From Candidatus Symbiopectobacterium endolongispinus (GTDB lineage: Bacteria > Pseudomonadota > Gammaproteobacteria > Enterobacterales > Enterobacteriaceae): a stretch of DNA of 64,000 nt. A model generated the notes under the pieces. That model saw only the letters and a program-made list of their open reading frames with translations. It was not told where the DNA came from and made no database searches. The translations under genes were made by a program, and so were the position numbers. Each line of letters opens with the position of its first letter. The first letter of the stretch is position 1. Where the stretch lies: contig NZ_JAFJYB010000001.1 of NCBI RefSeq assembly GCF_018777385.1, positions 744,001-808,000 on the forward strand, read 5' to 3'. Shown here in pieces: positions 19,202 through 26,857 of the stretch.

Positions 19202-19240
19202 ACAGGTTAAATGTGGCCTGAACGTTATAGGAATCGCAGT

Positions 19241-20427
19241 ATGTTAAATAACATCGTTAAAGAGCCGTTGCGTGGCATGGCAGATGAACCTCATGATAGC
19301 CGCCAGTTTTATGATGAGCTCACTTCAGCACGTGCGCATGTTCTTAAACTGATTAGCCGTAATTTAACGGATTTCGGTGACCGTTTTCCCGCAGAAACCT
19401 GCGTCAATGGCTACTATCCTCTTACCGAGAATGTGGAATGGACCACCAGTTTCTGGACCGGCCAGCTATGGCTTGCCTGGGAGATGAGCGGCGATGAACG
19501 CTACAGCGCCTTGGCGGAACGGCATGTGCGTTCGTTCGGGTTGCGCATCGCCTGGCGGCATGACACCAACACGCACGATCTGGGCTTTCTTTATACCCTC
19601 TCCTGTATGGCGGCATGGCGATTGACTGGCAACACGCAGGCCCGAGGTTTCTCTCTGCTCGCCGCAGATGCCTTGCTGGAACGCTTTCATGACAAAGCCC
19701 GCATCATCCAGGCTTGGGGTGACCTTGCGGACCCCGCTAAGGCCGGGAGAATGATCATCGACTGTAATATGAACCTGCCGCTGCTGTACTGGGCCAGTGA
19801 ACAAACGGGCGATAAGCGCTTTGCTGATGCGGCCTATGAACATGTCCGCCAGGTGGCGCGTTATCTGGTGCGCGAAGATGCATCGACGTATCCTATTATA
19901 TGGATGTCGCGACCGGCGCACCGCGCTACGGCAATACGCAGCAGGGATATGAGGATGACTCCTGCTGATCTCGGGGGCAAGCCTGGGGCATTTATGGATT
20001 CACGCTCAGTTATCTCTATACCGGCGATCGGGAATTGCTGGAGCTGGCGAAGCGACTGGCGGATTACTTTCTAAATCGGTTGCCGGAAGATGGTGTTTGC
20101 CACTGGGATCTAGCGCCGCTTGGCACCGACGCGCTACGCGATTCATCCTCTGCAGCGATTGCTGTGTGCGGGTTGCTTGAACTGTGCAAACATTTGCCGG
20201 TAACGGACCCAGAGCGAGTCCACTACCTGCGTGCAGCCCGACATATTATGTCTTCGCTGACGCAGGATTATCTTGCCAGGCTTGACGATCCTTGCAACGG
20301 TCTGCTCAAACACTCTGTTTATCACCTCGCCAGTCATAAAGGCGTGTATGAATGCGCAAGCTGGGGAGACTATTTTTATGTCGAAGCGCTGGTGCGGATG
20401 CTACAGAGCTGGAAACCCTACTGGTAA
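19241..20427 (+). pseudogene. GH88 unsaturated glucuronyl hydrolase, frameshift plus TGA
   Basis: The family removes 4,5-unsaturated glucuronate from the non-reducing end left by polysaccharide lyases. The start is taken at ATG 19241, after AGGAA, rather than 19211. Conserved pieces are WTTSFWTGQLWLAWE, RHDTNTHDLGFLYTLSC with the catalytic-site aspartate, GRMIIDCNMNLPLLYWAS and RGQAWGIYGFTLSYLYTGD. The frame is lost near 19893. In the correct later frame a TGA at 19966-19968 stands where the family has the tryptophan of SCWSRGQAWG. The last third (to 20427) is open. Two independent lesions make a real pseudogene likely. It ends about 150 bases before the transposon. Confidence 0.88.
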
Positions 20428-20556: not shown

Positions 20557-20576
20557 ATGAAAGCAGCATTATTGAT
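20557..20576 (+). pseudogene. Start of a gene cut off by the transposon left end
   Basis: AAAGGA followed six bases later by ATG AAA GCA GCA TTA TTG AT runs straight into the GGGG that begins the left terminal repeat. Ribosome site, spacing and a typical MKAALL start suggest the first codons of a further gene of the sugar cluster whose remainder lies elsewhere or is lost. MKAA beginnings are common in zinc dehydrogenases, but seven codons cannot identify it. Confidence 0.35.
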
Positions 20577-20614
20577 GGGGTCAGTTTGGATATCGAAAAT
20601 TATTGTACGTTAAG
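20577..20614 (+). repeat. Left 38-bp terminal inverted repeat of the Tn3-family element
   Basis: It begins GGGGTCAGTTTGGATATCG and ends GTACGTTAAG. It is the exact reverse complement of 26581-26618. The transposase stop codon (20610-20612) lies inside it, as is usual in this family. Confidence 0.97.
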
Positions 20615-23163
20615 GCTGTTTTTTGACCTTTTCGACTTTAGTTGGTCTCAGGCGGCTAAACTTACCGGAAGCCGGTATCCTGTTGCTTCTCCAGATATAA
20701 TCGCCTGTCAGATTGATATGCTCCCAGCCTAATGGCGACAGATGCGACAACAGTTGCTCGTTGATCTTCAGCCCATTACGCTTCAGGGCATCGACCGCTC
20801 TTTCCATATACACGGTATTCCACAACGAGATCGCTGCCGTCAGCAGCGTCAGTCCGCTGGCACGGTAGCTCTGATTTTCCGGTTTCCGGTCCCTGATTTC
20901 ACCCAGTCGGTGCATAAATACCGCCCGTGCCAGCGCGTTACGGGCTTCGCCTTTATTCAGCCCCGCCTGTACCCGCCGACGCAGTGCCGGATCGCGGAAC
21001 CAGTCGAGCATAAACAGGGTCCGCTCAATGCGGCCAATTTCTCTCAGTGCTTTGGCAAGTCCATTTTGCTTGGGATAGCTGGCAAGCTTTTTCAGCATCA
21101 GGGATGCCGTCACGGTTCCCTGCTTTATTGAGATGGCCAGACGCAGTACTTCACGCCAATGAATTTCAATTTCTTTCAGGTTCAGGCTGGTCGTGGATAT
21201 CAGCGACTGAAGCGCCGGGTATTTAGCCACTTTCCCTTTTATAAATAGCTTTTTGTCGTGGAGATCCCGAATCCGTGGACAGAATGCAAATCCCAGCAGA
21301 TGCATCAGGGCAAAGACATGATCGGTGAAACCTGCGGTATCGGTGTAATGCTCCCTGATTTCCAGGTCGCTTTCGTGGTACAGCAAGCCATCGAGCACAT
21401 AGGTTGAATCCCTTATCCGACTGATTATGCAGGTGTAAAACGGGCTGTATTGATCCGAAATATGGGTATAAAACTGACGTCCTGGATCCTGCCCATATTT
21501 CGGGTTAACCTGCCCTGTGTAGCGACCAGAGCTGCCTGTTCTGAAATTCTGCCCATATGATGATGATGTCGTCCCATTCCCCCAGAATGCAGCTAAAGGT
21601 CGCTTCCCTTGCGCATTCACCAGTTCAGCAAGGGCGGCTAAATATGTTTCGTCACGGATATACCATGCCTGAATATCTTCGAGTGATGATTTGGTGCTTC
21701 CGTGGCAGGCTTCTGCCATTTTGGTCAGACCAAGATTGATGCCATCCGCAAGGATGGTGGTAAGAAGCAGGCGGGTATCGGGACGGGCAATATCATTCTT
21801 TATATGCGAAAAATGTCGGGTAAACGTTGTCCAGCTGTTTACCTCATCGAGAATTTCCGTGATTTTAGGGCGCTGTAGCCGGAACTTTACGTGACTGTTT
21901 CCGGTACATATCTTTGATCAAAACCAGCGCATCGGCCAGAGATTGCGATGGTTGTGACTAACTGTAAAGCGGACAACATGCGCGGGGCATATTTACGTAA
22001 TGTGCTGTATTTCTCAGTAATAATATGCAGCGGGTCAAAATTATTTTTCCTGGCGAGATAGCGTGTTTCCTCCAGACTAGCGACAAACTCAGGCCATGGC
22101 AGTATGTTTTCTATTGCGGGCCATGGATCGCCACCGGAATCACGGGCTTCAGACAGAGCCTGACCGACATCGATGTATTGCCTCAGTTTGGACTGGATCA
22201 GCTTTCCGGTCTGCTGAAGGCGCTCAGCCTGTGTTCTTTGGCTTTGCTGAAAATGCTGTTCAGCATTCGCTCATGCGGCTCAATCACTTCGTCTGTCAGT
22301 GTGGCCCAGGCTTCTTCCAGCACGCACACCAGGATCGCATGACGCCGGGCTGCTGAAAATCGGGTCAAATCCCGACTACTCATCTTTTCGGCCTTCCCGC
22401 GCCAGTTTCAGCAACCGGTTCTGGTGAATGGTACGATCTATACCTTCCGGTAATGTCAGCGATTCAATGCTTCTAAGCCGATCAAGATGTTGCAGCACGT
22501 TCTTACCATTGATTTTACCCGGCGGTTGCAGAAGCCATGTCAGCCTGGAAGGCTGATTATCTGATGACTCAAGTAAACGATCCAGAGCATCCCTGTGAGC
22601 CGGAGTTAACGGGCATTCATGGTCTGAAATACGATTTTATCGCCGCCTGCCATGGCCTCCGCACAGGTACGCTCCACTACATCAATCGCGGGGATCATCA
22701 CGTTGTTCTGCCGGAGATAGACCAATAACTCTTCGGCCAGGAGAATACCTTTATCGGTGCGCGTCGCCATCGACAGCAGGTGTGTAATACAGTCCTGCTG
22801 TATTTTGCCGGTGAACGCCTTTACGCCAAGATAGCGGTACAGTTCGGTTAAATGCTCACGCCGGGTTGTATCCCTGCCGGAAAGGTAAGCAGGCCAGAGA
22901 TCCCCGGTGAGTTTTAGCCTGCTGGCGATATGCTTCAGCAGCGCATCAGATGGTGGAATTTTTTTATCTGGGGCAAAGCCGACATTTTTCAGATAGCAAA
23001 GCAGGACGGCAAAACCAAAACGGTTGGCAGGTTTACAGTGAGCACTGATAAGCGCCAGATCATGTTCACTAAAATACGCCATCCGGGTCAGCGTTAACTC
23101 ATCGTCCGGTAATGCCAGTAATGATTCTCTTTCAGACAGAGAAAGAATCTGCCTCCGTGCCAT
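20610..23163 (-). pseudogene. tnpA: Tn3-family transposase, multiply broken
   Basis: Starting at 23163 on the minus strand, the N-terminal domain reads MARRQILSLSERESLLALP and continues 185 residues. LTPAHRDALDRLLESSDNQ, HAILVCVLEEAWATL and LRKYAPRMLSALQ follow in shifted frames. The C-terminal DDE domain is open for 369 residues with [40 protein letters not shown] (catalytic aspartates) and [15 protein letters not shown] (catalytic glutamate). The region is about 850 codons against about 1000 for an intact enzyme, so some sequence between LSALQLVTTIA and [11 protein letters not shown] is deleted. It cannot drive transposition now. Confidence 0.92.
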
Positions 23164-23211
23164 ATAGTTTCACTCATAAATTATTCGATGCGGTATTTTT
23201 AACAAAAATGG

Positions 23212-23318
23212 TTATCGCATAAGGGTACACCCTGACGCCATAATCAAAATGTGACGACACACGATGAATGACATAACCTATATGCGATAGAATAAATACA
23301 ATAATCTAAATGCGACAA
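23212..23318. promoter_or_regulatory. Candidate res (resolution) site
   Basis: The gap between the divergent tnpA and tnpR holds three related half-sites: TTATCGCATAA at 23212-23222, its near inverse TATGCGATAG at 23281-23290, and AAATGCGACAA at 23308-23318. Position and repeat structure fit the resolvase-binding res region of Tn3-family elements. Subsite limits are not certain. Confidence 0.55.
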
Positions 23319-23330
23319 TGTGGTGAAAAA

Positions 23331-23975
23331 ATGTTCATCAGAGCTTATTTAAGGGCATCGACGGAAGATCAGTTCGCCGATCGGGCAAAAGAGATGCTGG
23401 AGCAGTTCGTTCAGGAGCGGGGGAATAAAATAGCCAGTTAATACCGGGAGAATATCAGCGGTACAAAACTTGACCGCCCGGAACTGGGACGTTTACTGAT
23501 GGACAGTCACCGTAATGATATTTTGCTGGTCGAGCAGATAGACCGGCTGACCCGACTGAGTAACAGTGACTGGATGACACTGAAAAAACAGATCGAACAA
23601 CACGAATTGCGGATTGTCAGTCTGGATGTCCCCACCTCATGGCAGGCGCTGTCAGATACAGACCCTTCGCAGGCCGACCCAATCACCCGCGCAGTGATAA
23701 GCGCCATCAATAGCATGCTTATCGATCTGATGGCTGCGATGTTGCATAAGGACTGGCTGAGTCGCCGCCAGCGGCAAAAACAGGGAATTGAACGGGCACA
23801 TACTCTGGGTAAATATCGGGGAAAACAGACCGATCAGGAGCGGCATCAGAAAGTCCTGTACTACCGGCAGATTAAGAAACTGAGTATTTGTGAAACAGCT
23901 GATGCTACAGGATATAGTTGTTCACAAGTATGTCGAATACAGGCTATATATAAACAAAATAAAGAAATTTTTTAA
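23331..23975 (+). pseudogene. tnpR: Serine resolvase with early in-frame stop
   Basis: From ATG 23331 the frame reads FIRAYLRASTEDQFADRAKE with the catalytic serine (RAST). It meets TAA at 23439-23441 after NKIAS, then continues in frame as YRENISGTKLDRPELGRLL, LLVEQIDRLTRLSNSDW and a C-terminal helix-turn-helix (SICETADATGYSCSQVCRIQ). This is a resolvase/invertase that would resolve cointegrates at the neighbouring res region. The stop separates the catalytic serine from the rest. Reinitiation at 23499 would yield a protein lacking it. Confidence 0.88.
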
Positions 23976-23996
23976 TACACTAAATAAGGATTACAC

Positions 23997-25822
23997 ATGC
24001 GACTCAGAAAGATCAAACTTACCAATTTCAGAGGTTATAGAAACACGATGGAAATTCTTGTCGATGAAGCCATGACAGGAATCGTTGGTCGTAATGATTT
24101 TGGTAAGTCAACAATCCTTGAAGCATTAGCTATATTTTTTGAGATTGATGGAATTAAAGCAGATAAAAATGACATGAATTGCTTTAGTATGGCTGATGGG
24201 GAATCTCACTTTGAAATTTCTTGTGAATTTGATGATCTGCCTTCGGTAATACTTATTGATGAGCGAGTGAGCACGACTCTGTCTTCTGAGCATTTATTAA
24301 ATAGCCATGGGTATTTCGAAATTGTAAAAAAATTCAAAGCGACAACAACTGGAAAACCAGATAAAACATACATTCGCTGCCAGCACCCTTTAGATGAACC
24401 GTTGAACAATTTGCTGGGAATGAAAATATCAGAATTGAAAGCCACAGGAAAAGATATTGAGAAAAACGTGGAGGATAAGCGAATTGCATCTTTATGGCGA
24501 CAGGCTATCAGAGATGCCTCTATGCCATATGAATGTGCTGAAATTTTACTTTATGTGGATAAAGGATTAGGGACAGAAACTAAGTCAATATGGTGACGGA
24601 TTCTTGAACAACTACCAACCTTTGCTCTTTTCAAGGCCGACAGAGAAAGTAGCGATGGTGACTCTGAAGCAAAAAACCCATTACAACAAGCTGTTAAAGA
24701 TGCTCAGGCTGCTTTGCAAGCGGAGATTTCAGCTCTTGAACAAGAAATCCAGGACAGTGTGTTAGATGTTGCTGGGAGGACTCTTGATAAACTGCGAGAA
24801 ATGGCACCAGAGCTTGCGAATGAACTCACTCCTCGGTTTAAAGAAAAACCCAAATGGACATTTAACTTTACACTAGATGGTGAGAATGGAATTCCAATAA
24901 ATAAAAGAGGAAGCGGTGTAAGGTGACTTATTTTGCTTAATTTTTTTAGAGCGGAGGCAGAGAAAGCAGTATCAGGAACCCAGCGCAACGTTATTTACGC
25001 TATAGAAGAACCAGAAACATCACAGCATCCTAATTATCAAATTATGTTGATGAAATCTTTATTGTCACTTTCAAATAAACCTAACAGGCAAATTATTGTA
25101 ACTACACATGTCCCGGCTTTAGCTGTATTAATTCCAGTCGAAGGCGTTCGTTATGTAACAAAAGATCCATATGGACAGCCTGTTGTCAAAATGCCTGATA
25201 ATGCAGTTCTCAGGGAGGCGACAGAAAGTCTTGGCGTTCTGCCAGAAACTGGTATGGAAAGAGCTAAAGGCATAGTTTTAGTTGAAGGGAAATCAGATGT
25301 CACATTCCTTAGACATGCAGGAAAATGTTTAAAACAATCCGGAGATATTCCTGTTAGCCTCGAAGATGTGAATATTGTACCTATTCTGATTGGAGGGTGC
25401 GGAAGTGTTAAGCATTGGGTAACATTACATATGGCAAATGACCTCGGACTACCATGGTGCGTTTTTCTTGATTCGGATATTGGAGGAGATCCAGTACAAG
25501 TTCTTTCGATAGGGAAACGAAAAAAGGAAGTAGAAGAGGCCGGGAAAATGTTTTTTGCCACACGTAAACGTGAAATTGAAAACTATCTTTGCCCGGACCT
25601 AATAAGAGATGAGACAGGAGTTCAGGTTGTTTTCACAGATACATGTGACGCGAAAAAATCATAGGAAGGGCAACCGGCACGAAACCTAATGACGTACTGG
25701 ACAGATTCTGGCCCTTAATGACTGCCGAAAAAATAATAAAATGCTCTACTTATAGGTATGGTAACAGTGACAAAATTGAGCTTAAAGAAATTCTTGAAGG
25801 CATTGTTTCATTAATTGATTGA
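23997..25822 (+). pseudogene. OLD-family ATPase/TOPRIM nuclease, three lesions
   Basis: One frame from ATG 23997 encodes an ATPase with Walker A GRNDFGKSTILEAL, signature RGSGVR and Walker B IYAIEEPETSQHP, then a TOPRIM nuclease domain starting GIVLVEGKSDVTFL. This is the single-chain OLD (overcoming lysogenization defect) architecture, often connected with phage defence. TGA codons at 24594-24596 and 24924-24926 replace what look like arginine codons (CGA to TGA). A frameshift in an A-run near 25655 displaces the C-terminus, which continues as IIGRATGTKPNDVLDRFWPL to 25822. Restored length is about 608 residues. It follows tnpR by 21 bases and is transposon cargo. Confidence 0.88.
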
Positions 25823-25964
25823 TCACGGCCTACGTTGCATAGAGGTCGTGTCAGTTTAAGCTTCTGTGCAACTTGCCTATGCTCAAAAATCGAGATTAAC
25901 GTATAATAATGGGGTCCCTAAAGAGCGGAGAGAGATGAAGGGCTGAGAGCCAGCCCTCAGCTCA

Positions 25965-26441
25965 TCAAGCAAATGTCGTAATCATCTTGAAGAAGTTTTC
26001 TTGGTTGAACTCAATACGCTGAGCTGGAGCATTACCTACACCACCAGAGACAATTACCCATCCAGGCAGTTTGCTTATTCCATCTTTCCAGTGAAGATTG
26101 AATTTATATGTGCTTGGTGCTCGGCTTGGGTTATAAATAGTCACTTCTAGACCACCTTTCATCCCGAAGTAGTAGAGACCTTCAGGGATGATTTTTAGTG
26201 TTTTATCACCATTTTTAAAAGTGATATTTGATACTTCAAATCGGTCGGTATTCTCGGTCACTAGAGTTGTGCTGGCACTAGCTGTTACTGGCGTTCCCTC
26301 AAACCACCCCTTTATCTCTAGAATCAGTGCTTTTGTATCTTCCTGGAACGCTAATACGTCACGTTTAAAGGCTTTTTCACCTTCTTTTTGTGCATTGGCA
26401 TTAGTTTCTAATTTCTGGAAAAACGCGTCTTTTGCTGACAT
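25965..26441 (-). CDS. Hypothetical transposon-borne protein
   Basis: I do not recognise this intact 158-residue protein. The first 45 residues are charged and helical (SAKDAFFQKLETNANAQKEG), possibly a coiled coil. The rest looks like a beta-sandwich with many aromatic and threonine residues (GDKTLKIIPEGLYYFGMKGG, WKDGISKLPGWVIVSGGVGN). There is no signal peptide or membrane span. It is read toward the OLD gene and away from the right terminal repeat. The 140 bases between OLD and this gene contain nothing clear. Being the only undamaged gene in the element, it may be under selection or simply younger. Confidence 0.75.
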   Translation of the reverse strand: MSAKDAFFQKLETNANAQKEGEKAFKRDVLAFQEDTKALILEIKGWFEGTPVTASASTTLVTENTDRFEVSNITFKNGDKTLKIIPEGLYYFGMKGGLEVTIYNPSRAPSTYKFNLHWKDGISKLPGWVIVSGGVGNAPAQRIEFNQENFFKMITTFA

Positions 26442-26580
26442 ATTGGAATCCTCTTTTTAGGGTACCAACTATATGGGGGAGATTGACCATTGTTTCAACA
26501 AGTCACGGGCAGGAAATGGAAATAAAATACCTTATGCTTGGTGGTGACAGTGGGGACTGTACCATCGCTCAAAAAATGTT

Positions 26581-26618
26581 CTTAACGTACAATAATTTTC
26601 GATATCCAAACTGACCCC
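26581..26618 (-). repeat. Right 38-bp terminal inverted repeat of the Tn3-family element
   Basis: It begins CTTAACGTACAATAATTTTC and ends CTGACCCC, the exact reverse complement of 20577-20614. It is joined directly to a truncated yihD two bases later. Confidence 0.97.
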
Positions 26619-26620
26619 AG

Positions 26621-26857
26621 TTACTGCATCCTGCCTGGCAAAAAGATCCGGACCTGAATCTGGTCCAATTTTTACAAAAACTTGCACAGGAGGCGGGGTT
26701 CCAGGGGCAACTAAGTGAGCTGACAGATGATATCCTGATCTACCATTTGAAAATGCGTGACACGGATAAAGAGCAGGTCATTCCAGGCTTGAAAAAGGAT
26801 TATGAGGAAGATTTCAAAACAGCATTGCTGCGAGCTCGGGGTGTTATCAAGGACTGA
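26621..26857 (+). pseudogene. yihD: YihD, 5' end removed at the transposon joint
   Basis: From 26621 the frame codes [19 protein letters not shown], then [18 protein letters not shown] and ends [14 protein letters not shown] at 26857. This is E. coli YihD (89 residues, function unknown) lacking about its first 12 residues and any start codon or ribosome site. In enterobacteria yihD precedes srkA-dsbA, and that order is kept here. The cut coincides with the outer edge of the transposon's right repeat, so the 5' end must lie beyond another breakpoint or be lost. Confidence 0.85.

Follow-up and report, generated by a model that had tools for sequence, protein, structure and literature searches.

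The joint of two insertion sites at a Tn3-family transposon with unmatched flanks in Candidatus Symbiopectobacterium endolongispinus is probably an assembly mis-join

Why would a Tn3-family transposon with perfect ends lie between two different five-base flanks? The question is raised by a 6,042-bp element (20577..26618) in the genome of Candidatus Symbiopectobacterium endolongispinus, whose host is named as the mealybug Pseudococcus longispinus in a passage of PMC13345370. The assembly comprises 4,492,448 bases in 10 contigs, and the window is the whole stretch of 64,000 nucleotides that was analysed (contig C4:744001-808000). The ends of the element are perfect 38-bp inverted repeats, the left one (20577..20614, plus strand) and the right one (26581..26618, minus strand) being exact reverse complements. 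The adjacent five bases are TTGAT (20572..20576) on the left and AGTTA (26619..26623) on the right. The earlier note on this DNA had described both features correctly, and it had explained them by homologous recombination between two copies of the transposon. The comparisons below indicate that two sites contribute to the joint in the window: its left side is the left half of one insertion, and its right side is the right half of a second one. The element belongs to a known family, and this type of joint is also known. The insertions are real, but the joint is judged, on balance, not to be; it is probably an assembly mis-join, formed by the collapse of two identical direct copies, rather than a real rearrangement.

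The weight of the unmatched flanks depends on how regularly such elements duplicate their target, which the earlier note had taken as a rule. Flanks were read in five plasmid copies with the same tnpA-tnpR shell. Four of the five had identical 5-bp flanks, in line with that rule. The fifth, with TATATA abutting the inverted repeat at both ends, was ambiguous. Because equal flanks were found in four of these five copies, the unequal flanks in the window need an explanation. The comparison set consisted of four congeners, G001 to G004 (G002 being one contig), together with three yihD loci, L051, L052 and L053. The SrkA protein encoded next to the joint matched 8 loci. The top matches were two Candidatus Symbiopectobacterium records (94-95% identity), one match of 93% was labelled Serratia marcescens, and Lonsdalea and Dickeya followed at 69-71%.

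The left half of the joint came from an insertion into a DJ-1/PfpI-family gene. This gene is intact in G004, and alignment to that copy showed that its first 20 nt remain in the window (20557..20576, plus strand) and that the transposon cuts it there. The left neighbour is a glycosyl-hydrolase-88-like gene in two frames (19211..20427, plus strand); its first piece matched PF07470 below the cut-off and its second piece had no match. The same glycosyl-hydrolase-like gene neighbours the DJ-1 gene in G004, where the gene that follows it starts ATGAAAGCAGCATTATTAATTGCTGATGG and continues uninterrupted. The cut frame had been taken for a sugar gene in the earlier note; it is instead the next gene, of the DJ-1/PfpI family.

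The other half of this gene was found on contig C5. The last 40 bases of C5 are the right end of the transposon, and beside them lie TTGAT and the remainder of the DJ-1/PfpI gene, in reverse. The product of this piece matched PF01965 (DJ-1_PfpI, E=2.6e-13). TTGAT at 20572..20576 (plus strand) is thus the left half of a 5-bp target duplication that is split across C4 and C5. After removal of one TTGAT, the two halves aligned to G004 without any insertion or deletion at the site, so the DJ-1 insertion was an ordinary one whose halves now stand on two contigs. Gene order in the congeners agreed. The sequence left of the element and the C5 end lie on one contig, in the same order and orientation, in G001 (C38), in G002 (2.10-2.12 Mb) and in G003 (C10, with inserts), and in G004 (C34) the C5-end sequence continues the left flank of the window directly. 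Of the four congeners, only G004 gave a match to the cut gene and its sugar-related neighbour. A genome search for the 38-bp end (at most 3 mismatches) gave three places, namely the two termini of the element and the terminus of C5. When the assembly was searched for further full copies, the window copy was the only full match.

The C5 end has peculiarities of its own (locus L014, 5075-9167). It carries broken sugar genes, with galE in several frames and a GAPDH-like gene in two. In a further frame, which is open, residues 1 to 143 of galactokinase run into the end of an FtrA-like regulator; this fusion may reflect a further deletion or joint.

The right half of the joint came from an insertion into yihD. 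In the window, yihD (26619..26857, plus strand) lacks codons 1 to 10 and the initial base of codon 11, as judged by alignment to relatives, in which the gene starts ATG AAA TGT CAT CGC GTT AAC GAG TTG GTC GAA TTA. The cut therefore falls inside codon 11, not at about codon 13 as proposed before. The bases AGTTA (26619..26623, plus strand) would belong to the target duplication of this insertion, as its right half. At the same position of the uninterrupted gene, L051 has AGTTA; L052, L053 and G002 have AATTA. In the relatives, mobA and mobB lie between yihD and a ribosomal RNA (rRNA) operon. A 1,700-bp query from a relative, covering the 5' part of yihD and mobAB, did not find these parts in the assembly; it matched only rRNA parts (six operons) and the 3' part of yihD. 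A search for mobAB in 1.9 Mb of the genome's own sequence also found none. With a 6-kb transposon on one side and an rRNA operon on the other, a piece of about 1.3 kb would easily be lost. The reciprocal flanks predicted by the earlier note were accordingly recovered in part: the C5 end carries the right end of the transposon with TTGAT and the remaining part of the left gene, and the yihD start codons with AGTTA were not found. Its statement that the two surroundings are far apart was borne out in G002, where the neighbours of the left site lie at 2.10-2.12 Mb (the cut gene itself being unmatched there) and yihD lies at 4.54 Mb. Together with the gene order of the left site in the congeners, this distance shows that the joint in the window is not ancestral.

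We propose that the chromosome would carry two copies of one Tn3-family transposon in the same orientation, one in the DJ-1/PfpI gene with the duplication TTGAT and one in yihD with the presumed duplication AGTTA. The second copy would be full-length and like the first. The assembly would have retained one copy, with the left flank of the DJ-1 insertion on one side and the right flank of the yihD insertion on the other. The remaining DJ-1 flank, the right one, would then have become the broken end of C5, which does stop 40 nt inside the element. The short piece with the yihD 5' part and mobAB, which in relatives lies between yihD and the rRNA operon, would have been dropped from the assembly.

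The same kind of error was found at another direct repeat of this assembly, the tuf gene (EF-Tu). On contig C7, tuf (C7:206.3-207.5 kb) has coaA and four transfer RNA genes upstream and bfr, rpsJ, rplC and rplD downstream. Judged from these neighbours, it is a tufB-tufA hybrid, tufA and tufB being the names of the two classical contexts. Contig C8 (256,538 bases) starts within the last part of tuf, which is followed by nusG; at its other end, fusA is followed by the first 45 nt of tuf, where the contig stops. The overlap with the tuf repeat is 41 nt at one end of C8 and 45 nt at the other, and that of C5 with the transposon is 40 nt. The tuf genes of G002 are direct and 279 kb apart, and the two ends of C8 adjoin them; in G003, the ends likewise adjoin both tuf loci, which are on different contigs there. 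These placements show that C8 belongs within C7 and that the assembly skipped it.

The mis-join is preferred because of this tuf error in the same assembly and, less firmly, because a real joint would leave C5 and C7 as a separate circle. The starts of C5 and C7 are the halves of one phage-type open reading frame (ORF), with a 15-nt overlap. The other end of C7 is gmhB, and in G002 a 16S gene follows gmhB after about 370 bp. The C7 end is a good candidate for the route to the missing piece, running through the rRNA operon and mobAB to the 5' half of yihD. The direct orientation of the two copies follows only if it leads there. In that case a real joint would close C5 and C7 as a separate circle of 1.62 Mb, a weaker argument than the tuf error. 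The genes dnaA and gyrB lie at 242-248 kb of C7, and mnmG lies at 76-78 kb of C4. In E. coli, mnmG is a neighbour of oriC. A split-off circle of C5 and C7 would hardly be viable, and two direct copies flanking C5 and C7 would be normal.

A second Tn3-like element in the same genome offers a comparison. This 3.05-kb element occurs in four copies and one partial copy, has 71-77% identity to the window element over parts of tnpA, and its copies are 99.6-99.8% identical. Among the four complete copies, the flanks were equal at C4:301 kb (TAAAT), differed in one of five bases at C8:133 kb, and were unequal on C1 and at C4:436 kb. The C4:301-kb and C8:133-kb copies lie within stretches collinear with G002. 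Next to the C4:436-kb copy, the match to G002 breaks off no more than about 115 bases from the partial copy (C4:430 kb), and no match beyond that partial copy was found in the G002 stretches compared. In the three comparable copies, unequal flanks thus coincide with breaks, which is expected for real breaks and mis-joins alike. Pairing of the C1 copy with another copy by exchanged duplications was tried and rejected, as no pairing was obtained.

Two further oddities were seen in the assembly. Contig C1 (149 kb) is circular as assembled, its two ends closing exactly in one fliF-like frame (gene named by eye). In the rRNA operon at C4 ~992-995 kb (locus L093, 4700-7205), the last third of the 23S gene is fused to a full 16S gene, and about 2.7 kb is missing compared with G002. 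This fusion is a deletion or another mis-join.

Several observations speak against a collapse. Many order breaks separate C4 from G002, so real transposon-linked rearrangements are plausible in this genome: 28 of 32 sampled pieces of C4 and C5 were placed in G002, and the placed C4 pieces (19/20) fell into about eleven blocks. One such break, at C4:430-439 kb, lies at a Tn3-like element with unequal flanks. The link from the C7 end to the rRNA operon and mobAB is a guess, since rRNA was found in the last 6 kb of none of the 20 contig ends. The contig ends placed in relatives were those of C5, C7 and C8 only, and another end could border the operon. The G002 operon beside mobAB also has a different neighbour on its 16S side. 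The genome project reportedly used long reads, which would span a 6-kb repeat. The choice between a mis-join and a real joint was made from the contigs and the gene order of relatives.

The real mechanisms, homologous recombination and one-step intramolecular replicative transposition, together form a serious minority possibility. Under both, the left end of the element should stand beside TTGAT in one place and AGTTA elsewhere, and the right end beside AGTTA in one place and TTGAT elsewhere. Homologous recombination between the DJ-1 and yihD copies would give an inversion or a similar change, with the reciprocal copy in the unassembled gap at the C5 end, and we consider it unlikely. The flanks are exchanged, one reciprocal flank was found, and the genome has further synteny breaks. 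Besides the transposon, the gap at C5 would contain about 1.3 kb of other sequence and an rRNA operon; such a compound repeat could defeat the assembler, and a single 6-kb copy could be spanned. However, under the contig order proposed above the copies are direct, and recombination between them would excise C5 and C7 instead of inverting a segment; the tuf mis-join also means that the assembly is untrustworthy at repeats. The two separate sites postulated by the earlier note are retained, but homologous recombination is not required and is one of three readings. We do not adopt it as the simplest explanation, since a collapse accounts for the contigs at least as well and a one-step transposition is compatible with them too.

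In that one-step event, the DJ-1 copy would have transposed replicatively into yihD without any prior second insertion, each copy keeping TTGAT and gaining AGTTA. By our derivation, its flank-to-end assignments equal those of homologous recombination. In intramolecular replicative transposition as described in PMC5142620, cis attack yields a circle and trans attack an inversion, and each copy has one target duplicate; PMC9330008 sets out cis and trans attack by IS6- and Tn3-family elements and calls the process characteristic of these families. He et al. 2016 (PMC5142620) traces plasmid rearrangements by transposon joints with exchanged target duplications. The joints described there resemble the present one in having a full element with two flanks from two sites. 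They differ in that they were found on plasmids from successive isolates, whereas here one reciprocal flank is missing and a repeat error occurs elsewhere in the assembly. The cis product would meet the same problem of geometry, with C5 and C7 excised, and the event would have to predate the lesions that now break tnpA and tnpR. We regard this explanation as more doubtful than homologous recombination. It is highly improbable that all joints are real, which by analogy with plant mitochondria would require subgenomic circles (C5+C7 at the transposon, C8 at tuf, and C1) formed via direct repeats beside a master chromosome in a many-copy cell. A deletion beside a single insertion, with no second site, would be compatible with the unequal flanks alone, but the right half of the DJ-1 gene survives on C5 beside TTGAT and the right end of the transposon, which makes this explanation close to negligible.

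Guanine-cytosine (GC) skew was sampled in 60 stretches of 20 kb and in a 400-kb run of C7, and it is not used as evidence. Near the joint, the values fit a continuation from the left part of the window to C5 (C4:725-745 kb, -0.053; C5:930-950 kb reversed, -0.063; C4:790-810 kb, +0.034). However, the 20.6 kb that adjoin the element on its left show almost no skew (-0.002), its sign flips at many places, and C4 and C7 as wholes lack a clear pattern whichever order is assumed. A dif-like site was sought with an E. coli sequence, allowing at most 5 mismatches, and none was found in the genome's own sequence that was searched.

The gene content of the element places it in the Tn3 family. Its terminal inverted repeats of about 38 bp begin with GGGG and are exact at both ends, and it carries a Tn3-type transposase gene, now broken, and a frame with one stop for a resolvase of cointegrates. 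The tnpA gene (20610..23163, minus strand) is broken by frameshifts and stops, with PF01526 (E=2.1e-129) and PF13700 in separate frames. NF033527 scored above its cut-off for a 369-amino-acid (aa) piece. In a tblastn alignment, an intact plasmid TnpA crossed three frames of this gene, with stops. The tnpR resolvase frame (23331..23975, plus strand; PF00239) has one in-frame stop and was 92% identical to a plasmid recombinase over 211 aa (tblastn). It is followed by a passenger gene for an AAA ATPase with an OLD-like TOPRIM domain (23997..25819, plus strand; PF13175 and PF20469), which is also broken. A second passenger ORF of 158 aa (25965..26441, minus strand) had no match in Pfam or NCBIfam at E<=0.001.

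The tnpA-tnpR shell showed 91-92% identity to plasmid matches covering 56-57% of the element, and the passengers differed among the plasmids with this shell (best 25 matches listed in both cases). Judged from these matches, the shell is common on enterobacterial plasmids. The closest known systems are Tn3-family unit transposons of enterobacterial plasmids, for example those on Pantoea agglomerans pPAB03, Enterobacter bugandensis pEC105227L and Serratia proteamaculans unnamed4. Their 38-bp ends are the same or one base off, their tnpA/tnpR region is about 91-92% identical, their passengers change, and 5-bp target duplications stand in four of the five copies read. In contrast, the window copy is chromosomal, its tnpA, tnpR and ATPase genes are broken, and its flanks are unmatched. 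The passenger module in the window (23997-26441) resembles Erwinia tasmaniensis pET46, in which a recombinase gene is followed directly by an AAA ATPase gene. The two ATPases were 93% identical over 554 aa, but the frame is open in pET46 (608 aa) and is broken in the window by two stops and a frame change.

Unequal target duplications mark a joint, and they do not by themselves tell recombination, transposition and mis-assembly apart. In this assembly, tuf was joined wrongly and the transposon probably was too, so studies of gene order need care at joints that lie in repeats. A real joint would add one more example of chromosome reshuffling seeded by transposons in a young insect symbiont, a process that is already known.

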